Source of the DNA: Alphaproteobacteria bacterium
Lineage (GTDB): Bacteria; Pseudomonadota; Alphaproteobacteria; UBA8366; Aestuariispiraceae
Assembly: GCA_030065235.1 (NCBI GenBank)
Contig: JASJDC010000009.1
Coordinates: 1 to 64,000, forward strand
Direction: 5' to 3'
Length of the DNA: 64,000 nucleotides
Below the pieces are notes generated by a model that was given only the letters and a program-made list of their open reading frames with translations, made no database searches and was not told the origin of the DNA. How positions within the stretch are numbered: position 1 is the first letter of the stretch; each line of letters starts with the position of its first letter. A program made the translations under genes and the position numbers. Below are positions 8,074 to 21,090 of the stretch, piece by piece.

Positions 8074-9018
8074 TTAGAGCGCCACAGTGACAAAAGTTCC
8101 GTTATGGCGGCGGGCGATTTCTCTCATCAGGGTGGCGAACGTGTCCCTTGTGTACCGCGTCCGAAAACCAACGCCGTGGACGCGGGCCTTCGGTTTGTTT
8201 GTGACTGGGTCGATGTTCAACCTGTCAAGTGTCTCGAAGACCGGGTCATAAGAGCCGCCGCTATAATCGTCTCCGAAAATATAGATGGAGGTTTTGTTTT
8301 CGCCATCGACATAACTGCGCAGAGCTTGTTCCAACCCTTCCACCGGGCTGCTGTTCGACGTGCTTCGCCAGCTTGACATCAACGCAAGGGCGGCTTTTCG
8401 GCGAGACGGATTATCGGGGATCCAACGACCGGCATAGCTGGAAATCAGATGGGCGCCGTTGTCATTGAGGATTTGAAACCCTTGCAACGTGGGGTGAATA
8501 TCCATGATGTTGCTGATTTCCGCCGTTACGCGGGGCCAAATCTGAAACATGCTGGCTGACGTGTCGACGATGAAGACGGCGTAGTCGCTGTCGACGGGTA
8601 TGCCGCCGACTTCGTCATCGCGTTCGTCCGCGGTGGCCGGCTGGATCGTAGCGCGTGACAGTGATTCCTGAACCAGGGACAGCCCGCGCATGTCATCGGC
8701 CAGTTGATCCAAGTCTTGTTGACCAGATTGAAGAGCCGCTTCGATCTCCTCCCCACCGCGTTCTATGGCGGCCATAATAGCGCCTTGAGCCTTCTTTTCG
8801 CTCTCGAGTTCTGCGACGACGCGCGCCAACGCGTCGAGGTCCTCCTCCATCTCTAGAACCTGGTTCAGCAGGTCCTTGGCGACCTGATCATCCGGACCGC
8901 TGGGCGCCTCGGCCTTGTTTGAAATCAGGACGAGCAACACCACGGCGCCGAACCCGCAGCTGATTATGTCTAGGAACGATACGCTGAAGATGTCGTTGGA
9001 TCTGTCGCGGCGTTTCAT
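8074..9018 (-). CDS. vWA protein with ExbD-like membrane anchor (second of pair)
   Basis: A 314-residue protein, last gene of the eight-gene unit. Residues about 10-33 form one helix containing FLDIISCGFGAVVLL, with an Asp at the position of the ExbD/TolR/MotB proton-carrying Asp. Residues about 45-130 are strongly coiled-coil (Glu/Leu/Ala heptads). From about 145 a von Willebrand A domain begins at AVFIVDTSASM, an intact DxSxS MIDAS; the later MIDAS Thr position is less clear (SSPVEG) and an IYIFGDDYSG strand follows. ATG 9018 overlaps the previous stop by four bases and removes an unlikely 19-residue leader. I infer an inner-membrane stator-like subunit with its vWA domain in the periplasm. 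Confidence 0.82.
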   Translation of the reverse strand: MKRRDRSNDIFSVSFLDIISCGFGAVVLLVLISNKAEAPSGPDDQVAKDLLNQVLEMEEDLDALARVVAELESEKKAQGAIMAAIERGGEEIEAALQSGQQDLDQLADDMRGLSLVQESLSRATIQPATADERDDEVGGIPVDSDYAVFIVDTSASMFQIWPRVTAEISNIMDIHPTLQGFQILNDNGAHLISSYAGRWIPDNPSRRKAALALMSSWRSTSNSSPVEGLEQALRSYVDGENKTSIYIFGDDYSGGSYDPVFETLDRLNIDPVTNKPKARVHGVGFRTRYTRDTFATLMREIARRHNGTFVTVAL

Positions 9019-10073
9019 GGCCAACCCGCCGCCGGGCTGAGAAGAACGCCGCCGGTTAAATTCGCCCATCGCCAATAGAGTTCAGCCGCGCCTGGATCTC
9101 CTTCCAACGGCATCATGATGACGTTGACCTTCGCCTTTGCCGGCGTCGCGTTCACTGTCTGCGCAAATAGTTTCCGCCGGCATTCGCCCGAGATCGTTGC
9201 GGATCCTCCCCATAGCGCCGAGCAATCGGCGAAAGGACTAATCGATCGAAAGTTCGTATCGCCTTTTGTGGGGAGCCCATCGGTGATGATGTACAAGTCT
9301 GTGGGGTCGATGCGCCGCGCTGTTGTGAGTGCGCTTTCCAGGTTCGTGCCGCCCGCAGGCGCCATGTCGTTCAAGGCCCGGATGATATTCTGCAACCCTG
9401 ATTGATTTCTCGCCGAGGTCCAGTCTTGGGAACCGACGATAAATGCACTCTCATTATAGGCGATGACGGACACCTGGGCCGACTGGGGAGCGCGGGCAAG
9501 GAGCCATTCAACGGTTCGAATGGTGCGCCGCCATTTTTGCGCTGAACGTCGATCGGCGTCACTGGATCCTTTGACGCGCAGGATATCCAAGAGGGCGTAA
9601 TCGGTCATTGACGCACTCGCGTCGACGAGGATTGCGATGCGTTCTCCTTCAACTCTCAGCCCGATCAGATAGTTTTCTTCACCGGCGGCGTCCAAGGTCA
9701 CCGTGTCGGCGGTTTCCCGAGGCGGCATGCTCGCAATTCTACTCTTCAGGTCCGCAACCGTCGCCGCGCGCGCATCCTTTTCCGCCTCTAACGCATCGAG
9801 CGCATCCGCCAAAGCTTCGGCTTGCGCTTTCGCATTCTCCACACGTGAAGCGTTGGATTGGGTATCGTCTTCCAATTGCGCCTTTTCTCTTGCGAGCTCG
9901 GCCGCCGCGGCCTGGAGCTGTTCCAACTCGGCCTGCAACAAGTCTTGTTCAGGTATCGACACGTCCTGCTCGAATTTTACGAGCATGAACACCAGGACGG
10001 CCGCTCCTAAACCGCAGGCCATCACGTCAAGCAGAGCCAGGTTCAGTCCTTCTGACCGGCGCGCCCGCCTCAC
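9015..10073 (-). CDS. vWA protein with ExbD-like membrane anchor (first of pair)
   Basis: A 352-residue protein starting at GTG 10073, which overlaps the ExbB-like gene's stop by four bases. One helix (about residues 10-32) holds LALLDVMACGLGAAVLVFML. The D-(V/I)-x-x-CG-x-GA-x-V core is shared with the next gene, so the two are paralogues at least in the anchor. A long coiled coil (about 40-115) precedes a von Willebrand A domain: ILVDASASM (DxSxS), GGTNLESAL with the MIDAS Thr, and DLYIITDGLPT. All three MIDAS loops are recognisable, so metal-dependent ligand binding is plausible. The anchor orientation places the vWA domain in the periplasm. The partner channel is the ExbB-like protein upstream. 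Confidence 0.83.
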   Translation of the reverse strand: MRRARRSEGLNLALLDVMACGLGAAVLVFMLVKFEQDVSIPEQDLLQAELEQLQAAAAELAREKAQLEDDTQSNASRVENAKAQAEALADALDALEAEKDARAATVADLKSRIASMPPRETADTVTLDAAGEENYLIGLRVEGERIAILVDASASMTDYALLDILRVKGSSDADRRSAQKWRRTIRTVEWLLARAPQSAQVSVIAYNESAFIVGSQDWTSARNQSGLQNIIRALNDMAPAGGTNLESALTTARRIDPTDLYIITDGLPTKGDTNFRSISPFADCSALWGGSATISGECRRKLFAQTVNATPAKAKVNVIMMPLEGDPGAAELYWRWANLTGGVLLSPAAGWP

Positions 10074-10846
10074 GTCGCGCGGCTCCGGCTGACCTTAAGA
10101 AGGAACTCCCGATTGCAGTAGTCTTTGGTTTTGACAAGAACGTCATCTTGGAGGCGCTGGAGCTGATATAAGAGGAACATCAGCGCGACACTTAAGAGCA
10201 GCGCAACCAGCGTCGAGTTAAAGGCGACGCCTAAAGAGTCGGTCATGGCTGCGATATCGCCCGCTAACGCTTCATCGGCTTGCGCAAGCGCTTGCCCAAT
10301 GCCTCGGACGGTGCCGATAAAGCCAATCGAGGGGATCGCCCAGATCAAGTACCGGATCATGGAGTTGTCCGCCTCTTGTTTAACGGCGAGATCTTCGACA
10401 CCATCCGAAATTGCGTCCGATGCGTCTTGAACGCTGCCTGTCGTGAGGAAGCGGTAGATGCCTGCCTGAAGAACCTGCATCTGCGGCGCGTCGCGGATAG
10501 AAGCGGGTTTCTCCTGAAAGTTCTGAAGCCATCCGGTCAGAAACGCTTTATCGAAAGAGTCCCGGGCCGGATCGACGTGCGTTTCGAAGAGGTATCTTTG
10601 TCTCAGGATTGAAAAGCACTGTGCAAGGATCAGATACACGCCCCACGCCATCAGCGTGATGCAGATCTGTTGCTCCACATCTTTCAGTATTATCGCGAAT
10701 TCACGCGGCGCGGCGTCGCCAAGTTGCTGCGCTTCGGCCAGGATACGGGCGGCCTCCGGCCGAATATAGCCAATATAGAGAACATGCACGCCGACGATGG
10801 CGCATAGCAAAGCGACGAGGCTTTTCCCTGCTTGCAGCATTGTCAA
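10070..10846 (-). CDS. MotA/TolQ/ExbB proton-channel family protein
   Basis: A 258-residue inner-membrane protein with about four helices: residues about 9-28, 61-82, and a C-terminal pair. The last pair carries the family signature LIWAIPSIGFIGTVRGIG followed by TDSLGVAFNSTLVALLLSV, equivalent to the GxxGTVxGI and LxxAxxxTxxGL blocks of ExbB/TolQ. Such proteins form a pentameric channel around ExbD/TolR/MotB helices and convert proton flow into motion. TTG 10846 gives a TTGA overlap with the gene before, like its neighbours; ATG 10840 is the alternative. It is followed by two Asp-bearing single-helix vWA proteins rather than ExbD, so the motor's periplasmic tools differ from known ExbBD, TolQR, MotAB or ZorAB pairs. 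Confidence 0.87.
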   Translation of the reverse strand: MTMLQAGKSLVALLCAIVGVHVLYIGYIRPEAARILAEAQQLGDAAPREFAIILKDVEQQICITLMAWGVYLILAQCFSILRQRYLFETHVDPARDSFDKAFLTGWLQNFQEKPASIRDAPQMQVLQAGIYRFLTTGSVQDASDAISDGVEDLAVKQEADNSMIRYLIWAIPSIGFIGTVRGIGQALAQADEALAGDIAAMTDSLGVAFNSTLVALLLSVALMFLLYQLQRLQDDVLVKTKDYCNREFLLKVSRSRAT

Positions 10847-11010
10847 ATATCGACCGGGAATGACGTGGGGGAATCAAGACTGATTGCGGGGATCGCTTCC
10901 GCAATCGCGATCGAAGCCGCAATCAGGATCACGGCGGTGATCACGGCGCGGGCCGCTTTGCGGCGTGCTTTGGGAAGGTCGGCTTGTTCCATCGTGCTGT
11001 AAGCGCGCAT
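10843..11010 (-). CDS. Small single-helix membrane protein in vWA/ExbB operon
   Basis: A 55-residue frame wedged between the FGE-like and ExbB-like genes. ATG 11010 lies one base after the preceding TGA, and the stop overlaps the next start. It has a basic, soluble N-terminus (LPKARRKAARA), one hydrophobic helix (VITAVILIAASIAIAEA) and a short polar tail. The one-base spacing and overlap on both sides argue that it is a real gene and not chance. Small membrane peptides often act as assembly factors of larger complexes; that role here is inference. No family recognised. Confidence 0.6.
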   Translation of the reverse strand: MRAYSTMEQADLPKARRKAARAVITAVILIAASIAIAEAIPAISLDSPTSFPVDI

Positions 11011-11011
11011 C

Positions 11012-13015
11012 TCACTCTCCGTAAATATAACGGCCGAGGCGGAAACCGAGATCGTCTCGAGGCCCACGTCCGCCCTCGCGATAGGCTGGCCGTAGTGTTG
11101 TCTTTGTCCCTGATCGAAAGCTCGCGCCTTTCACCACGCGTGTATCCCCTCGGCGTGCGCCCAACGGGTCGACGCTCACGCTGTCCGTCGGCGGCGGTGA
11201 CACTGAATATCTGTCGTGAACCCATTCCGAGGCGTTTCCGGCTTGATCGAAGAGCCCCGACGCTTCAACGGAATAGGATCCGACCGGACTGAGCCGTGCA
11301 TAACCATCATTATAGTTCGGAACGAACCTGTTGGCGCCGCCGCGCGCACTTTCGTCCGCGATGTTCGCCGCCCCGCGCGGGATCACCGTCGTGTTTCCCC
11401 ACGGAAATACAACGGCGCCGTTCCTTCCGGCGCTACGCGCAAGATATTCCCATTCCGCCTCCGTCAACAGTCGATATCCATCTGCTGATCGGTCGATCCC
11501 TTCTAGCCGATCTCCACTAAAGCGGTAGAAGAGCTTTCGCCCTTCTCTAACGCTTACACAATTGGCGAATTTCGCAGCTTGGTTCCAGCTTATATTGACT
11601 CTTGGAAGAGAGCCGGGCCCGTCTTGCGGATCCCCTGTACAGGACGCGTAGTTTGCATTCGTGACTTCATGCAGGCCTGCATAGAAATGTCGGGTCAATG
11701 ACACGGGGCGCAGGAACTCGTTGGCTCTTTGTCCAGGTTCATGCCTTGGCGCGCCCATGGTGAATGTGGTCGGCTCGAACAGCTTGAACTGCATACCAAG
11801 GCTGTTGGTATAGACGGACGGGGATTTAGCCAGAGCGGACTGTTTCTCGGTTTTCAGATTAAACGTCGCAACATAGCGCTTGTCGGCTTCGAGCCGCAAA
11901 GTGCGTTCTTCGCCGACATATCCAGGAAACTGAGCGGAGATCGTGGTGTCGACCGCTGGAAGCGTAAGAGTGAGCGGGCCTTGTCCGACAGTGTCGCCAT
12001 TGACCGTGATATCGGCGCCGACATTCGCCTCGATCGTCACCGACGCGACAGCGGGTTCCAACTCGAGCTCTATGGTTCTTGATTCAAGCGGCGCCAGCGA
12101 GACAGTTTCGCTGTAGGCCCTGTATCCGTCTTTCTGATATCGGATACGTGTTTCGCGTCGGGAGGGGACTTTGACCGCCTGTCCGAGCACGGCGCTCTTG
12201 CCGCCAACAATAAGCAGCCCTCCCGACGGCGACGCGCGAACAGTGAGTTCTCCTGGCAGAGGCTGCAGCGCGTAGTTCCGCTCAACAGAGGGGCGTTCGG
12301 TGTCAATCCTGACCCTGTCTGTCACGTCGATGTAGCCTTCCAGCGAGACGAGGATATCCAGCACGCCGGCTTCAACCTCGGCTTCTATCGGCGACTGTCC
12401 GACGACAGCGCCGTTGATCCGCACATCGACGCCTGTCGGCGCCGTTTTTACGAGCAGCGTCCCCTTCGCTGGCTCTAGTTCGAAATCCAGCTGCACCGTC
12501 TCCGCTTTTTCAACCGTAACAGTTTGCCTTTGAGAACGATAGAACGGATGGGATACCGAGACATCGTACTCGCCCGGTTCCACCTCCACCTCGACTGTCG
12601 CGCCTGTCATGCGCATGGTCTCGCCAATGACCCAAGCGGCTTCGTCCAGCTCCGGGATCGCTTTCGCCTGAATGACAGCCGGAATTGGGCGCAGCTCAAC
12701 CTCTAGAGTGCGGCCTAAATCGAGAGCGGTGATTCTTTTTTCGCTCGTTCGGTACCCAACGGCGGCGATCTCAATATCGAGCTCGCCGCCTAGGCTATAG
12801 ATCGCGTCGCCAACGGTTGCGCCAATACCGTCAACGATACGGATTTGCGCGGTTTCCTCCGCATCCGGCGGCAGAACCGCGATTGCGACGCCTTTTGACG
12901 ACATCAAGAAGCCCGACACGCCAAGCACAGCGACGATAAAGACCGTTACGGCGCCAATGAACAGGTTTCTTGATCTACGCCGCGCCGCTTCGACGCTCGC
13001 ATCAAAGTCTTTCAT
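11012..13015 (-). CDS. Membrane-anchored PEGA-repeat protein with FGE-like C-terminal domain
   Basis: A 667-residue protein. A basic N-terminus precedes one helix (about 19-42). About five PEGA-like beta repeats follow (residues about 45-400), each ending in a G-Y/F segment such as SLEGYIDVTD, QKDGYRAYSE and QFPGYVGEE. From about 410 a SUMF1/FGE-sulfatase fold is clear: NSLGMQFKLFEPTTFTMGAP, VTNANYASC, NISWNQAAKFANC, YRLLTEAEWEYLARSA, FPWGN, LFDQAGNASEWVHDRY and VVKGASFRSG...LGFRLGR. The catalytic Cys pair that real formylglycine-generating enzymes carry near the GGS(W/F) block is absent. It is therefore probably a binding or structural domain, not an oxidase. The C-terminal part is expected in the periplasm. 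The gene overlaps the one before by 14 bases. Confidence 0.84.
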   Translation of the reverse strand: MKDFDASVEAARRRSRNLFIGAVTVFIVAVLGVSGFLMSSKGVAIAVLPPDAEETAQIRIVDGIGATVGDAIYSLGGELDIEIAAVGYRTSEKRITALDLGRTLEVELRPIPAVIQAKAIPELDEAAWVIGETMRMTGATVEVEVEPGEYDVSVSHPFYRSQRQTVTVEKAETVQLDFELEPAKGTLLVKTAPTGVDVRINGAVVGQSPIEAEVEAGVLDILVSLEGYIDVTDRVRIDTERPSVERNYALQPLPGELTVRASPSGGLLIVGGKSAVLGQAVKVPSRRETRIRYQKDGYRAYSETVSLAPLESRTIELELEPAVASVTIEANVGADITVNGDTVGQGPLTLTLPAVDTTISAQFPGYVGEERTLRLEADKRYVATFNLKTEKQSALAKSPSVYTNSLGMQFKLFEPTTFTMGAPRHEPGQRANEFLRPVSLTRHFYAGLHEVTNANYASCTGDPQDGPGSLPRVNISWNQAAKFANCVSVREGRKLFYRFSGDRLEGIDRSADGYRLLTEAEWEYLARSAGRNGAVVFPWGNTTVIPRGAANIADESARGGANRFVPNYNDGYARLSPVGSYSVEASGLFDQAGNASEWVHDRYSVSPPPTDSVSVDPLGARRGDTRVVKGASFRSGTKTTLRPAYREGGRGPRDDLGFRLGRYIYGE

Positions 13016-14558
13016 CGCTAACTACCATTACTTCGACGCGTTCCACGCCAGGCGGTATATCGAGTTCGACGATTTTTGAGATATGCCCTTCACGAGCGCC
13101 TTCGAAAACATACGCCCCCGGCTTCAATTGAATGGTCCGACCCATGGTCTTGCCCACACGGCCGACGCCGCGCACGCCAATATCCGTTTTACCATCGGAG
13201 ATGATAAATACCTGAACATCTTTCTGATACGCTTCAAGTGTCCTGGTCAGCCGATCTGCGGCGGCTTTCAATTCCGGACTGAAAGACGCATAGGTTTTGG
13301 CGTCGCGAAGAATCGCATCGCCTCGACCCGCTACGCCGTCGAGCGCCAGACGGTCGGGATTCTCCAGGAGTCCGCTAATTGCGTTTGAGGCGCCGATGAT
13401 GCGCTCCGCCAGCTGTTTACTTTGCAGAGCGTCTTTGTTCGCCGGCTCAATCGACAGAGCTTTGTTTAAAGAGGCGAGCGATCCAACCCAATCATCCGCC
13501 TGCGCCGCCGTCTGTGCAGCGCGGATGTGACCTTCAAACGACAAGCGTCGAACAAGACTGTCGACCTCGCCCCTGAGCGCCGCTGTCTCGGCGCGATCTG
13601 GATATAGTTTTTTTGCATCTTCGAGCGCGGACTCTGCAGCGGCCAAGTCGCGGTTATCGATGCTCTTTAGTCCCTGATCGATGGCGACGCCAAAATCCTC
13701 TTCCTTTATCGCTTCCCTTAATTCTCCGGAACGGGCGGCCAGGTCAGATCGGCTTGGGGCCAAGCGTAGGGCTTTCTCTATCGCCTTCAGTTCCGTCCGT
13801 GGCCTTTGTTCAACACGCGCCCGTTCTGCCTCGGCCAACAGGCTCAACAGTTCCGGGAGCGCGTCGACCTCTTTTTGCAAGTGCGGCAGTCGCGGATCTT
13901 CCGGGTCAATCGATGTTGCGGTTTCGAGACCGGTCCTTGCGGCTGGCAGGTCATCGACACGCAAGGCCGCTTCAACGGTCGCGACGGCCCGTTCAAGTGC
14001 GGCGGACCGTTCAGCGAAATAGGCCTCAGCGTCGCTCTGCGCATTGCTGAGCAGTTCTTTGGCGGTTCGATATTGTCCGCGCGCGAACTCGGAAACGCTC
14101 TCGTCCCGAAGCGCCAATACTCCCTCTCTTTGTATCGGGCGCCAGAAAGGTTCCCGCAGCGCCTCAAGAGAGTCGCCGAACCGATCGTTGAAGTCGGCAA
14201 GAGCTTTCTTGAATTCGTCACGTTCTTCTGTGTTCAGGGTTTGCTGTGCTTCAGCCTCTTCGGGCGCTGTCGGCTGCGCGTTTCCCCGAGACGCCGCTTC
14301 AGTCGATTGGTCCAGTGAGGACGGCGGGGGCCGGCTCTCTCGTGTGTCAGTGACGGATGGGCCATCTGTATCGGAAGATGGGCGCGCAGCGACCTCTTCG
14401 GAGGTCCGAGACCGGGTTTCATACTCCGAGAAATCGCCGGGCTCTAAGCCGAGGATTGTCGCGACCGCCACACAAACGGCTGCAAGAAACGCGACGATGT
14501 AAACGCCAGCGCGACGCCGATCAGCCCGGCGGGCGGCTTGGATGTCCGAATCCTGCAT
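13002..14558 (-). CDS. Membrane-anchored helical-repeat (TPR-like) protein with C-terminal PEGA-like domain
   Basis: A 518-residue protein. One helix near residues 15-37 (VYIVAFLAAVCVAVATILGL) anchors it. Residues about 40-105 are a Ser/Pro/Glu-rich linker. Residues about 110-420 are alpha-helical TPR-like repeats, with several motifs of the form AxxALxxAxxLxPDxxxxxxL (for example LTKAL-type SLASLNKALSIEPANKDAL). The last 75 residues form beta strands with a GRTIQLKPGAYVFEGAREG segment like a PEGA repeat. It precedes the PEGA/FGE-like gene with a 14-base overlap and follows the lipoprotein gene by 15 bases. A periplasmic scaffold role is likely, since both have the same topology. No specific family recognised. 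Confidence 0.75.
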   Translation of the reverse strand: MQDSDIQAARRADRRRAGVYIVAFLAAVCVAVATILGLEPGDFSEYETRSRTSEEVAARPSSDTDGPSVTDTRESRPPPSSLDQSTEAASRGNAQPTAPEEAEAQQTLNTEERDEFKKALADFNDRFGDSLEALREPFWRPIQREGVLALRDESVSEFARGQYRTAKELLSNAQSDAEAYFAERSAALERAVATVEAALRVDDLPAARTGLETATSIDPEDPRLPHLQKEVDALPELLSLLAEAERARVEQRPRTELKAIEKALRLAPSRSDLAARSGELREAIKEEDFGVAIDQGLKSIDNRDLAAAESALEDAKKLYPDRAETAALRGEVDSLVRRLSFEGHIRAAQTAAQADDWVGSLASLNKALSIEPANKDALQSKQLAERIIGASNAISGLLENPDRLALDGVAGRGDAILRDAKTYASFSPELKAAADRLTRTLEAYQKDVQVFIISDGKTDIGVRGVGRVGKTMGRTIQLKPGAYVFEGAREGHISKIVELDIPPGVERVEVMVVSDERL

Positions 14559-14573
14559 AGAGCCAGGCTACGA

Positions 14574-15881
14574 CTAAAGCTTCTTATCGGGAACCGCCTC
14601 AACTTCAAATACTTGCTGGAGAAACTGGCGCCACTGCTCAAATTGCTCTTCCGCAGTGCCTTCCAGCTCCGCCGTTTGTTCTTCGAATTCAATGACCTGT
14701 GGTGCGAGTTCTGCGTCGATCGAGTTGCCCAGCTCATCAAGGGCGTCCCGGTGGAAGGCCGCCTCTTTGCTAGTTTGGAAGCTGTCTTGCAGGAGCAAAA
14801 CGCCGCCACTGCCGGCTACGAAAGCGCCGAGGCCGCCCAAATCTTTTCCTACGCTGCTGTCGGATTGAGCCCCTGCAACGGCGGCGGCGACCGCCACGCC
14901 AATCAACAAGACCCCCGTAACACCCTGAGTAAACGCCTGAGTACGGGCGTCTTCTTTGGCGCGGATTTCAAACGCGGCCTGTTCCTGCCAGGTGAAGTAG
15001 CTCTCCTCCATCCTTTCAGAGAACGCCTCGTACTGATCCTGCATACGATCGATAAATAATTGATCTCGGACGCGGATGGCCCGAGTGCGCATCAGCATTG
15101 GGTCTTCAGCAGCCGGGTATCCGGTAAGCGCGTACTTGCCGTTCTCAATCAGTAGATAGTCCTCAAAGGCTTTTTCCGTGAAGCTCGACCCAAATCGAAG
15201 ATCCGTGATCTTCTGAGAGGTCTCAAGCTCTTCAACAGAGTAATATTGCAACTCTTTTGCTAGAAAAGCGGCGGCTTCGTCAAAAGCCGGCTGGTAAGGG
15301 TCGACGCCTTCGTTGCGAGCGCTCCTTCTAAAATCCTCCGGCACATCGTGGTCGAATGACTTTTTTAACCAGCGTGAGCCGGTAATGGAGACAACCTCCA
15401 GTTCGAACTCGACCTCCTCACCGGTTGATTCCTCAATACGGCCCAAGATGTAGAGGTCGCCGGTGGCGTTGGCGTTAGGAACCACGCGAACCGCCCCAAA
15501 CTTATCCGTATCCTCGATCGCTTCTTTCAGCTTGACCGCGAAACGGACGGCTTCGGCGCGTCTTAACTCCGGCCATACATATTCATCCGCGGCGAGGGCG
15601 TCCCCTTTTTCGTCGCGCCAAGCTCTGCTCTCTAGGTTGGCGTAGTCGGCTTTGTCTTTCTCTGTCAGACCAGGATCAAAAATCGGGATGACGATATCGA
15701 TGCGGGGTCGTTCAGCCGGCACATCTTCCACCGCGTCTTGCGCAAAGAACGAGGACAGTTGTGGCCCGATCGCTTCCGATCGCGCGCCGCTTCCCATTGT
15801 CTGGCACGCCGACAAGAACAGTGCGGCGACGCAAGCTGTGGCGATACCCCGCGCAATGCGGGTCCGAGTGTCTAATATCAC
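14574..15881 (-). CDS. Outer-membrane lipoprotein of the vWA/ExbB operon
   Basis: A 435-residue lipoprotein. GTG 15881 is chosen: a GGAGG site sits five bases upstream and it lies one base after the previous stop. It gives the short signal peptide IARGIATACVAALFLSAC with a lipobox Cys followed by Gln, which favours the outer membrane. The mature protein is charged and mixed alpha/beta (RPRIDIVIPIFDPGL, GDLYILGRIEESTGEEVEF, VVSITGSRWL). Near the C-terminus a glycine-rich hydrophobic stretch (GVLLIGVAVAAAVAGA) and a glutamate-rich helix follow. The first half recalls lipoproteins with a TolB/CsgG-like N-terminal fold, but that is a guess. It could tie the inner-membrane motor to the outer membrane. 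Confidence 0.72.
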   Translation of the reverse strand: MILDTRTRIARGIATACVAALFLSACQTMGSGARSEAIGPQLSSFFAQDAVEDVPAERPRIDIVIPIFDPGLTEKDKADYANLESRAWRDEKGDALAADEYVWPELRRAEAVRFAVKLKEAIEDTDKFGAVRVVPNANATGDLYILGRIEESTGEEVEFELEVVSITGSRWLKKSFDHDVPEDFRRSARNEGVDPYQPAFDEAAAFLAKELQYYSVEELETSQKITDLRFGSSFTEKAFEDYLLIENGKYALTGYPAAEDPMLMRTRAIRVRDQLFIDRMQDQYEAFSERMEESYFTWQEQAAFEIRAKEDARTQAFTQGVTGVLLIGVAVAAAVAGAQSDSSVGKDLGGLGAFVAGSGGVLLLQDSFQTSKEAAFHRDALDELGNSIDAELAPQVIEFEEQTAELEGTAEEQFEQWRQFLQQVFEVEAVPDKKL

Positions 15882-15882
15882 G

Positions 15883-16593
15883 TCAACCTCCTGCGCCGGG
15901 CGTCGGGAGCCCCTTGAACTTCCGATACTCATCCCAAAGCCGCGCGCGAATCTCGGGGTCTTCCTCCTCCATGGCGGCGCGTCTGATCTGCGCCTCTAAA
16001 ACACTATCATTGTCTGCGGATGGAATATCTTCCGGAACGGCGCCATTGCTGACAGGCGGACTGCCGGAACCCTGCGCGGAAGTCGACCCAAGGTCCTTTT
16101 CAAAATCACTGTCCGCGGCTGACAGCGCGGCTTCCTGAATAGTCTCAGGCCGCTTCTCGTCTCCCGCAAGGTCAGAGGAGGGCGCTGAATAGTCTCCAGC
16201 CGCGCCAGCCGTCCCCGCCGCGCTTTCCGCTTCGGTCCCGGTGAGGTCGCCGGCCAGATCGTTTGCCGACCCGTCGCCGGCGGCGCCGCCCTGAGAGGAT
16301 CCGCCTTGAGACGATCCGCTGAGGCCGGCCGCGCCGCCAGAATCGGCGCCGCCATTCGCAGCCTGCGCCATGCAATGCTCGAACTTCTCGAGCGATTCAA
16401 AGAAATGCTGGTCCATTCGGGCGATATTCTCCGCCCGTGTGAGGTCGGGATCGTATCTGTATTCCAGTTCGAGATCGCTGCAGTCAAAGTCACGCACGGA
16501 GTTTTGCGCCAGCGCCGGCGCTGAAATCAAAGCGCAAGCGCCAGCGATTAGAGACAGATATCTCCATCCTGAAGCGATTTGGACTATGTGCAT
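15883..16593 (-). CDS. Secreted Ser/Gly/Ala-rich protein, first gene of the vWA/ExbB operon
   Basis: A 236-residue exported protein. ATG 16593 has a GAGG site six bases upstream; ATG 16611 is an alternative that adds six residues. The signal peptide ends at ISAPALA/Q. A short folded N-terminal part contains two cysteines (DFDCSDLELEYRYDPDLTRAENIARM ... FEHC, given in parts) and a helix. A long low-complexity region rich in Gly, Ser, Ala and Asp (about residues 75-190) follows. The C-terminus has a charged helix (AQIRRAAMEEEDPEIRARLW). It begins the co-directional run that ends at 8074. No family recognised; a periplasmic or secreted linker-type component is likely. Confidence 0.66.
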   Translation of the reverse strand: MHIVQIASGWRYLSLIAGACALISAPALAQNSVRDFDCSDLELEYRYDPDLTRAENIARMDQHFFESLEKFEHCMAQAANGGADSGGAAGLSGSSQGGSSQGGAAGDGSANDLAGDLTGTEAESAAGTAGAAGDYSAPSSDLAGDEKRPETIQEAALSAADSDFEKDLGSTSAQGSGSPPVSNGAVPEDIPSADNDSVLEAQIRRAAMEEEDPEIRARLWDEYRKFKGLPTPGAGG

Positions 16594-16611
16594 CTGTATC
16601 CTCGACACCAT

Positions 16612-19809: not shown

Positions 19810-21090
19810 ATGAGCGACATCTCGACACGTTCGGCGTCGGACCTTGATCTGATCGCCGCCGCCAAGAGGATCGGCCCGATCGCCTTGCGCGAGATGCGGC
19901 TGGCCTTTGCAATGCTGGCGCCGACGATCCTGATCGTCCTGGCGATTGTGTTGATCCCGCTGGCGGCGAATTTCTGGATTAGCGTGAAGCCGATCGGTTT
20001 GGCCGAATTGCGCGCCGCCGCGCCCCTGGTGCGCGAGCGTGAGCGCGGAACGTTGGAAGCGGTCGGTGATACGATCACGGTAGAGTATCGGGTGCGGTCT
20101 TCGTCCCCCAGCGAACCCGTGACCGAGGTTGTGATCTTCGACACGCTGCCGCCGGGCCTAGAGCCAGTTGAGACTGCGCCGGAATGCGTCCTGACCGGGG
20201 CCGAGATCCGTTGCGAATTATCCATTCTGGAGCCGAAAATACAGACAAGGCTGAACTTCGCCTTCACCGCGACCCAAGCCTATTTCGACACCGGCGCGCC
20301 GCGCCTGCGGGACAGCGATCCGACCGCGTCCGGCGAGTCCGACAATGTCCTGACCAATTTCGAATTCACCTTGGATAATTTCGCCAAAGTCTTCGACGCG
20401 GACGAGTTCTGGGAAGTGCTCTGGGTGTCCTTCGTCTATACGCTGGGCGGGACCTTGGGCGCTTTGATCTTGGGGCTGTTCGCCGCGCAATTGATGATGA
20501 CGAACTTCGCCGGGCGCGGGATCATGCGCGGCTTGTTTCTGTTCCCTTATGTCTCGCCAGTGATCGCGGTGGCTTTCACCTGGGTCTTTTTGCTCGACCC
20601 ATTCTCCGGCACCGTCAACGCGATCCTCACCAGTACGAACGTCACCAGCGAGACCATCAACTTCCTGGGCCAGCGCGGCAACGCCCTGGCGACGGTGATC
20701 GCCTTCGAGGCTTGGCGCTACTTTCCGCTCGCCTTCCTGTTCATCCTGGCCCGGATGCAGTCATTGGCCGCGGACCTTTATGAGGCGGCTGAGATGGACG
20801 GGGCCACGCCGTTCCAGATGTTTCTGCATATCTCGTTGCCGCAACTGATCGGCATTATGTCGACCCTGTTCCTGCTGCGCTTCATTTGGACCTTCAACAA
20901 GTTCGATGACATCTTCCTACTGACCGGGGGCGCGTCGGGCACGCGGACCTTCACCGTCAATGTCTACGAGCAGGCTTTCGCGATTTCCAATCTCGGCGCC
21001 GGCGCCGCGGTGGCCGTCTGCATTTTCTTTATCTTGGCCGGATTTGTGACGCTCTACTTTAAGTATGGGCCGAAAGAGGAGGGGATGTGA
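19810..21090 (+). CDS. ABC sugar permease (MalF-like) with DUF11-like periplasmic insert
   Basis: A 426-residue permease. Helix 1 is LAFAMLAPTILIVLAIVLIPLA. Before the conserved ENY-like NFAKVFD block that leads into helix 2 there is an insert of about 90 residues (roughly residues 75-165). It reads like a DUF11/CARDB-type beta domain: GDTITVEYRVRSSS, VVIFDTLPPGLEPV, two cysteines (ECVL, IRCEL), then SILEPKIQTRLNFAF. The canonical EAA loop follows: DLYEAAEMDGATPFQMFLHI. Ordinary permeases of this class are about 300 residues. GAG/GGGG-rich bases precede ATG 19810. The insert may dock the binding protein or sense the cell wall, by analogy with the P2 loop of MalF, though at a different position. 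Confidence 0.86.
   Translation: MSDISTRSASDLDLIAAAKRIGPIALREMRLAFAMLAPTILIVLAIVLIPLAANFWISVKPIGLAELRAAAPLVRERERGTLEAVGDTITVEYRVRSSSPSEPVTEVVIFDTLPPGLEPVETAPECVLTGAEIRCELSILEPKIQTRLNFAFTATQAYFDTGAPRLRDSDPTASGESDNVLTNFEFTLDNFAKVFDADEFWEVLWVSFVYTLGGTLGALILGLFAAQLMMTNFAGRGIMRGLFLFPYVSPVIAVAFTWVFLLDPFSGTVNAILTSTNVTSETINFLGQRGNALATVIAFEAWRYFPLAFLFILARMQSLAADLYEAAEMDGATPFQMFLHISLPQLIGIMSTLFLLRFIWTFNKFDDIFLLTGGASGTRTFTVNVYEQAFAISNLGAGAAVAVCIFFILAGFVTLYFKYGPKEEGM

Follow-up and report, generated by a model that had tools for sequence, protein, structure and literature searches.

A conserved eight-gene unit that may encode a proton-driven envelope motor with two different vWA heads

We examined a 64,000-nucleotide stretch of DNA (the window) from an alphaproteobacterial genome of 4.18 Mb whose family also includes Aestuariispira insulae. 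Between positions 8074 and 16611 the minus strand of the window holds eight genes, g1 to g8, transcribed from 16611 towards 8074, and these form a real conserved module of unproven function. In relatives that are long enough to be judged, the gene set and its order are kept almost throughout. The module combines a predicted TolQ/ExbB-type channel subunit (g6), two different vWA proteins in the position of MotB or TolR (g7 and g8) and a set of envelope proteins, and we consider it probable that the whole encodes one trans-envelope machine. An earlier note on this DNA, made from the letters alone, had proposed a proton-driven envelope machine with vWA tools; three points go beyond it: g5 has a conserved C-terminal tail, the FGE-like domain of g4 has lost its cysteines and some of the relatives form a kinase/FHA branch.

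Results

Gene layout and conservation of the unit

The genes lie as the note had described them, co-directional with gaps of 1-15 bases and overlaps of 4-14: using the best starts (a GTG at 15881 behind GGAGG for g2, an ATG at 10840 for g6 and an ATG at 9018 for g8), the intergenic distances from g1 to g8 are 1, 15, -14, 1, 2, -4 and -4 bases. The features are as follows.

g1, 15883..16611, minus strand: 242 residues, exported; N-terminal region with two Cys, variable Ser/Gly/Ala linker, conserved C-terminal helix (consensus LEAQIRxAA..E.DP..xxLWxEYRKxKG)
g2, 14574..15881, minus strand: 435-residue lipoprotein, GTG start; lipobox LSAC with Gln at +2; PelC/CsgG/TolB-N-like domain, then predicted 77- and 41-residue helices with a hydrophobic tip
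g3, 13002..14558, minus strand: 518 residues; single N-terminal transmembrane (TM) helix, TPR-like repeats, conserved C-terminal domain
g4, 11012..13015, minus strand: 667 residues; N-terminal TM helix, four PEGA domains, FGE-like domain without catalytic cysteines
g5, 10843..11010, minus strand: 55 residues; TM or signal-peptide segment, short tail ending SLDSPTSFPVDI
g5 tail, 10843..10860, minus strand: conserved C-terminal FPVDI plus stop
g6, 10070..10840, minus strand: 256-residue TolQ/ExbB-like channel subunit; extra N-terminal helix, conserved Thr177
g7, 9015..10073, minus strand: 352 residues; TM helix with Asp16, coiled coil, vWA domain with DxSxS metal site
g7 Asp16 codon (membrane helix), 10026..10028, minus strand
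g8, 8074..9018, minus strand: 314 residues; TM helix with Asp17, coiled coil, vWA domain with DxSxS metal site; ATG start, alternative upstream TTG possible at 9075
g8 Asp17 codon (membrane helix, ATG numbering), 8968..8970, minus strand

With g6 as bait we found nine other alphaproteobacterial genomes, from six families including the window's own, in which the genes stand in the same order on a single strand. The best BLAST segments are 25-57% identical, and the 14-base overlap of g3 and g4 is identical in all nine. No BLAST match to g5 was obtained in two of these genomes (E 0.01); its C-terminal tail is nonetheless present in 9/9.

When species genomes were scanned more widely with two peptide patterns taken from g6, at least 594 stretches came up, at least 593 of them g6 relatives, and the best 80 loci (cited here by L numbers) were used. 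Completeness was counted in the 47 of these with at least 17 kb, the other 33 being cut by contig ends and excluded. Each of g2, g3, g4, g6, g7 and g8 occurs in 47/47 long loci, g1 in 45 and g5, by profile, in 26, and the genes are collinear on one strand in 46 of the 47. The note had named scattered genes or a lost gene order as grounds for abandoning its idea; neither was seen, in these long loci or in the nine genomes. Genes lie on both strands in three of the 80 loci: L072 and L084, where the unit is partly inverted yet all eight genes are kept, and L086, which is cut by a contig end. The short locus L082 lacks g1 despite DNA upstream of g2, and L062 and L063 are identical copies. Because L054, L069, L078, L089 and L097 belong to both collections, the nine-genome and 80-locus sets are not additive.

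A predicted motor core with two vWA proteins

Several lines of evidence suggest that g6, g7 and g8 form a motor of the MotA/TolQ/ExbB 5:2 superfamily: g6 has a MotA_ExbB domain and a predicted TolQ/ExbB-type fold, and its partners bear a membrane helix with a conserved Asp. The domain match (PF01618, 1.4e-10) scores 41.4 bits against a Pfam cut-off of 22.9. The structure model of g6, built from 60 alignment rows, has a predicted local distance difference test (pLDDT) score of 94.4 and aligns with TolQ (8vlw_B) at a Z score of 15.2 over 202 residues at 3.1 Å, and with ExbB at Z 13.4; the lower matches are a designed helical pore (Z 10.6), ZorA (10.4) and MotA (up to 10.2). In the model, residues 2-40 form an additional N-terminal helix ahead of the TolQ-like part. 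The motif GFIGTVRG is invariant in the relatives, partly by construction since it served as a search pattern, and the g6 profile matched no PDB entry by sequence. Taken together, sequence and model support a TolQ/ExbB-type channel subunit.

The membrane-helix Asp is present in every readable relative, 74/74 for g7 (72 by pattern, with L054 and L092 by eye) and 72/72 for g8 (71 by pattern, with L070 by eye). The vWA metal site DxSxS is likewise kept in 74/74 aligned rows of g7 and 72/72 of g8, the window included; the g8 counts omit L066, L101 and L121 of the 75 best-hit frames, which are cut or split so that the metal site is unreadable. These data support the view that two different proteins, g7 and g8, occupy the MotB/TolR position, each combining a predicted membrane helix that bears the Asp with a coiled coil and a vWA head whose metal-site motif is intact. 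Pfam agrees with the note on g7 as a vWA protein (VWA_2, 8.9e-9), and the retained DxSxS bears out the same reading of g8, which, like g1, g2, g3 and g5, has no Pfam family over its cut-off. Some members of the wider motor class may lack a pair of this kind, since in L048-L051 just one vWA gene was recognised next to the ExbB-like gene.

The host genome also contains what we take, from their motifs, to be a TolQ-TolR-TolA set and MotA/MotB-type pairs, so that g6-g8 would be an additional motor. At the edge of its contig 18 (L006, 1372-2883) lies a gene for a 504-residue protein of ZorA-like length with a weak MotA_ExbB match below the cut-off.

Envelope proteins

The note's PEGA/FGE reading of g4 stands: Pfam finds PEGA in four stretches (5.2e-29) and FGE (2.8e-27), both above cut-off. 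We take the catalytic cysteine pair of FGE to be expected after the VxxGGSW-type motif, and in 73 of 74 g4 rows there is no Cys within 25 residues of this motif, L070 having a lone Cys. FGE enzyme activity of g4 is thus ruled out by the missing cysteines, and the domain is probably a binding or structural module. Among solved structures the relatives of g4 in a PDB search are FGE enzymes (1.1e-11) and PorK chains (2.5e-9), and the best NCBIfam match is GldK (7.5e-16) at 58.4 bits against an equivalog cut-off of 350.

For g3, which the note had called TPR-like, the TPR signal is weak in the single protein (0.0066) and clear once relatives are included (TPR_2 in 17 of 22 scanned). The sequences support g3 and g4 as inner-membrane-anchored proteins of TPR and PEGA/FGE-fold type, respectively.

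The g2 profile had no PDB match by sequence, and its relationships were seen by fold. A model from 50 alignment rows (pLDDT 82.4) matches, over about residues 55-222, FlgT (Z 11.7), PelC (11.6), CsgG (9.9), PqiC (8.8) and TolB-N (8.8). This shared fold, together with the lipobox, supports g2 as a lipoprotein with a PelC/CsgG/TolB-N-like domain; NCBIfam adds a weak SLATT_1 match (0.00094, 19.1 bits against a cut-off of 41). In g1, which has no match in Pfam or NCBIfam, the C-terminal helix is kept, the two-Cys N-terminal region is present in many of 19 rows and the linker is variable.

The C-terminal tail of g5

In the relatives a small gene lies between g4 and g6, and where it gives no profile match the candidate frames are mostly 43-107 residues long, with a hydrophobic N-terminus and an unalignable middle. 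What is kept is the end. A tail of the form [FIL]-P-x-[DN]-I plus stop occurs in 76 of 77 g4-g6 intervals; the strict form F-P-x-[DN]-I plus stop accounts for 73, three more read LPSDI or IPYDI, and the one exception, L129, ends FYSDT. As controls, the wider pattern was found in 0/77 intervals on the reverse strand and at 0/91,433 other stop codons of the same loci on both strands. The 4.18-Mb host genome has one FPx[DN]I-stop site with any stop codon, that of g5, and the tail is therefore not a general export signal.

The note's description of g5 as a 55-residue helix protein holds for its size; the rest needs revision, as in many relatives the protein looks exported, with a signal peptide, and the conserved part is the C-terminus. 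In several alphaproteobacterial copies, read by eye, cleavage of the signal peptide would leave a peptide of some 15-20 residues. The sequences support g5 as a small protein, exported or anchored, that is conserved in its last five residues. Docking of the tail is favoured by its free carboxyl end and by the fixed register of a Pro and an acidic residue; a vWA metal site or an FGE-type cleft would be candidate receptors.

A kinase/FHA branch

The largest shared neighbour clusters listed are mostly metabolic genes of related genomes, except for an extra gene between g6 and g7 in 17 loci, most of them labelled Gammaproteobacteria. An FHA domain was found in 11 of 15 extra-gene proteins scanned, and a Ser/Thr kinase domain stands ahead of the g3 membrane helix in 8 of 22 relatives scanned; that of L127 has a degenerate loop. 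Assigned to single loci by motif and by eye (Pfam gave the totals), the 13 loci in which both the extra gene and g3 are readable comprise eight with kinase and FHA, four with neither and one (L114) with FHA only. The combination of kinase-g3 and FHA gene is seen in part of one mostly gammaproteobacterial clade.

More distant ExbB-like/vWA motors occur in Alphaproteobacteria in L046 (2279-9830), L052 (8546-18809) and L049 (7227-10774). FHA genes adjoin the vWA motor in all of these, and in L046 and L052 a Ser/Thr kinase (beta-helix-fused in L046, FGE-fused in L052) and a PP2C phosphatase gene lie alongside it. From their gene content these loci appear to be a phospho-regulated relative of the motor class.

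Distribution and surroundings

The distribution of the unit is patchy. An orthologue of g6 occurs in one of 13 other genomes of the same family, and g2 in 9 of 384 other genomes of the class and, in a phylum sample, in 15 of 397 other genomes, one family supplying 13 of the 15. Scoring in both of these g2 searches, phylum and class, was limited to four first-look candidates per genome, so the counts may be low. Labels among the best 80 loci include Alpha- and Gammaproteobacteria, Mariprofundaceae, Nitrosomonadaceae, Desulfobacterota-type families and one Acidimicrobiaceae contig, and genera bearing the unit include Magnetovibrio, Methylophaga, Sneathiella and Aestuariispira, represented by named strains that are not known to be pathogens. 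The Acidimicrobiaceae (Actinomycetota) contig, L087, bears the unit with an outer-membrane-type lipoprotein and is possibly a binning error. In a FastTree tree of g2, g6 and g8 (58 rows), five changes each are needed for the Alpha and Gamma labels, and well-supported branches force at least three (Alpha) and at least five (Gamma). These label changes are compatible with transfer or loss and prove neither.

The G+C content is 57.9% in the unit and 60.9% in the remainder of the window, with no sharp break, and g2 found no match in 72,556 plasmid records searched for a plasmid-borne origin. A scan gave two promoter-like sites against 3.8 expected and 17 terminator-like sites against 11.6 expected. 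Among the genes flanking the unit in the window, RND and LacI genes were unmatched in the relatives and TetR had one weak match, in L034. At 19810-21090 the window encodes an ABC sugar-type permease, read from its translation, in which a long insertion after the first helix resembles a DUF11/Ig-type extracytoplasmic domain.

Discussion

A working model and the evidence that weighs on it

From the observed gene set, gene order and motifs and the predicted folds we infer a stoichiometry, an ion, a movement, a docking mode for g5 and an output. One g7-g8 heterodimer would sit inside a ring of five g6 copies and would be rotated or shifted as protons flow past its two Asp residues. Both vWA heads could then bind and release periplasmic partners via their metal sites. 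Through g4 and g3 the force would reach an outer-membrane assembly of g2, with g1 as a flexible tether. The FPxDI tail of g5 may dock within the complex, where its receptor would be the FGE fold of g4, which has lost the cysteines, or else a vWA metal site; at such a site the tail Asp could act as an acidic ligand. In some gammaproteobacterial relatives the g3-fused kinase and the FHA protein may report on or control the machine. The likeliest output would be force on an outer-membrane assembly, whether for remodelling, tension sensing or export. The earlier note's picture of a proton-driven envelope machine with vWA tools thus holds in part, in a predicted motor core of the proton-motive-force type, vWA domains in the MotB/TolR/ExbD position and the envelope parts.

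A bolder version makes g5 a dedicated peptide ligand for a proton-driven heterodimeric motor, which would read the free C-terminal FPxDI through its vWA metal sites or through the FGE fold and would in one branch be under Ser/Thr-kinase/FHA control. We offer it as a speculative proposal and would not bet on it; were it true, the unit would be a peptide-gated rotary machine spanning the envelope, with an integrin-like head turned by proton flow.

A number of observations weigh against a single machine of this kind. For g6 only the TolQ/ExbB fold match stands clear, because the designed helical pore outscores ZorA and MotA. In a Foldseek search with the g6 model the top ranks are all ExbB/TolQ at a probability of 1.00, with a best E value of just 0.0013; the best for g2 is 0.0095, so that by Foldseek alone neither model reaches E < 0.001, and the fold matches are of low identity. 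The g2 list includes unrelated prolyl-tRNA synthetases at up to Z 7.7, and for its helical half (the 77- and 41-residue helices with the hydrophobic tip and a short beta pair) no structural match was found. A simple pattern gives a lipobox in 44 of 61 g2 relatives, some of them perhaps false, and none in the other 17, several of which resemble plain secreted proteins. The invariance of the patterned part of g6, including Thr177, is by construction, because the 80 relatives were chosen by two g6 peptide patterns. Pfam finds no kinase, phosphatase or FHA gene among the eight proteins of the window unit, and we know of no phenotype or complex for it.

Alternatives and comparison with known systems

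The unit might instead be a Tol-like envelope maintenance machine, in which the motor pulls an outer-membrane lipoprotein against peptidoglycan and supplements Tol-Pal in some bacteria. Like Tol-Pal it would have a proton-motive-force-type motor of TolQ fold (TolQ is the closest match of g6), a TolB-N-like domain in g2 and a TPR protein, as in CpoB, which the part of PMC12204202 consulted gives as an operon member. It differs in having vWA heads in place of TolR, an FGE/PEGA protein and the FPxDI-tailed g5, and Pfam recognised no TolA, Pal or TolB propeller among the eight proteins. A separate TolQ-TolR-TolA set, named by motif, appears to be present in the host genome, and the rarity of the unit (g6 in 1/13 other family members, g2 in 9/384 other class genomes) argues that it is not housekeeping. 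We regard this explanation as unlikely. Much the same standing is given to motor-powered export or surface assembly on a plan like that of the type IX secretion system (T9SS; GldK-GldL-GldM-GldN) or SiiAB, with g2 as an outer-membrane export ring and g1 and g5 as substrates or plugs. The PelC/CsgG-like fold of g2, the two exported proteins within the unit and the GldK and PorK matches of g4 speak for it, and T9SS likewise joins a motor to an FGE-fold envelope protein, GldK/PorK being a ring lipoprotein, as the name of the matched model also has it. However, the motor subunits of the unit are of TolQ and vWA type, g4 is membrane-anchored with PEGA domains, its GldK match lies far under the cut-off and FGE enzymes beat PorK for g4. 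Only one protein of the host genome carries the FPx[DN]I tail, and none of the largest neighbour clusters listed looked like cargo.

A further possibility, also a doubtful one, is an envelope sensor like the threonine-phosphorylation pathway of the type VI secretion system (T6SS; TagQRST-PpkA-Fha), where damage would be sensed, a signal passed inward and the sensor reset by the motor. TagR is of the FGE type and PpkA contains a vWA domain. The g3-fused kinase and FHA gene in part of one clade, and the kinase, PP2C and FHA genes that adjoin the more distant vWA motors of L046 and L052, are consistent with this reading; the likeness to the pathway extends to an outer-membrane component, an FGE-type periplasmic protein, vWA domains and, in cousin loci, kinase and FHA. 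The parts of that pathway include TagQ (outer membrane), TagR (periplasm), PpkA and Fha1, according to the portion of PMC10482370 consulted. It has an ABC transporter where the unit has an ion motor, the window unit has neither a PpkA-type kinase nor a phosphatase or FHA gene, and 14 of the 22 g3 relatives scanned are without a kinase. The host genome contains no T6SS sheath gene (PF05591), which rules out a T6SS accessory operon. Far less probable than any of these, in our estimation, is an anti-phage system related to Zorya. ZorAB belongs to the same 5:2 motor superfamily, g6 reaches Z 10.4 to ZorA, and a PADLOC scan of the eight proteins (the flanking proteins being outside it) gave weak ZorA2 matches only, for g6 (0.0057) and g8 (0.02). 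In contrast to Zorya, g6 has no long ZorA tail and is nearer TolQ, vWA proteins replace the OmpA-type ZorB, and the unit has periplasmic PEGA, TPR and lipoprotein parts. That scan found no match to ZorB, ZorC, ZorD or ZorE, by which Zorya membership is ruled out, as the note had already judged. The PEGA and FGE domains also occur in other conflict systems, without ExbB or MotA, in the part of PMC7159879 consulted.

Against these alternatives, a trans-envelope machine built on a vWA motor remains our preferred reading, and the closest comparison is with a motor already in print. In a search of open-licence full texts, preprints excluded, we found no description of the eight-part module, of the kinase/FHA branch, of the FGE part devoid of cysteines or of the FPxDI tail, for which four spellings matched unrelated abbreviations only. 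The sole vWA-motor paper found there, seen in part, is that of Williams-Jones et al. (June 2025; PMC12204202), which predicts TolQ-like pentamers with paired heterologous Asp-bearing vWA proteins, without TolR or ExbD and of unknown function. The motor core is therefore not new, and the published prediction gives it independent support. These TPH-vWA motors share with the unit a tolQ-like gene, a heterologous vWA pair with an Asp-bearing transpore helix and the lack of an adjacent tolR or exbD; Pfam recognised neither among our eight proteins, and the flanking genes were read as translations. They differ by description, in that the text of the paper, compared without its figure, has no PEGA or FGE, and its TPH-vWA section names no lipoprotein, g5-like protein, kinase or FHA part. 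The example species in the part consulted were not found among our loci. The note's statement that the set matches no named system thus fails for the motor core, although the other five parts go unnamed in that section. Handles are offered by the composition of eight genes, by the tail of g5 and by the kinase/FHA branch, in the form of a candidate ligand, candidate receptors, a candidate outer-membrane ring and a candidate signalling read-out. According to the part of PMC12204202 consulted, 5:2 motors driven by the proton-motive force serve flagella, nutrient import, envelope upkeep, secretion and phage defence. A motor in which two different vWA heads come with a full set of envelope partners, and which occurs in several bacterial classes, would add a function missing from that list.

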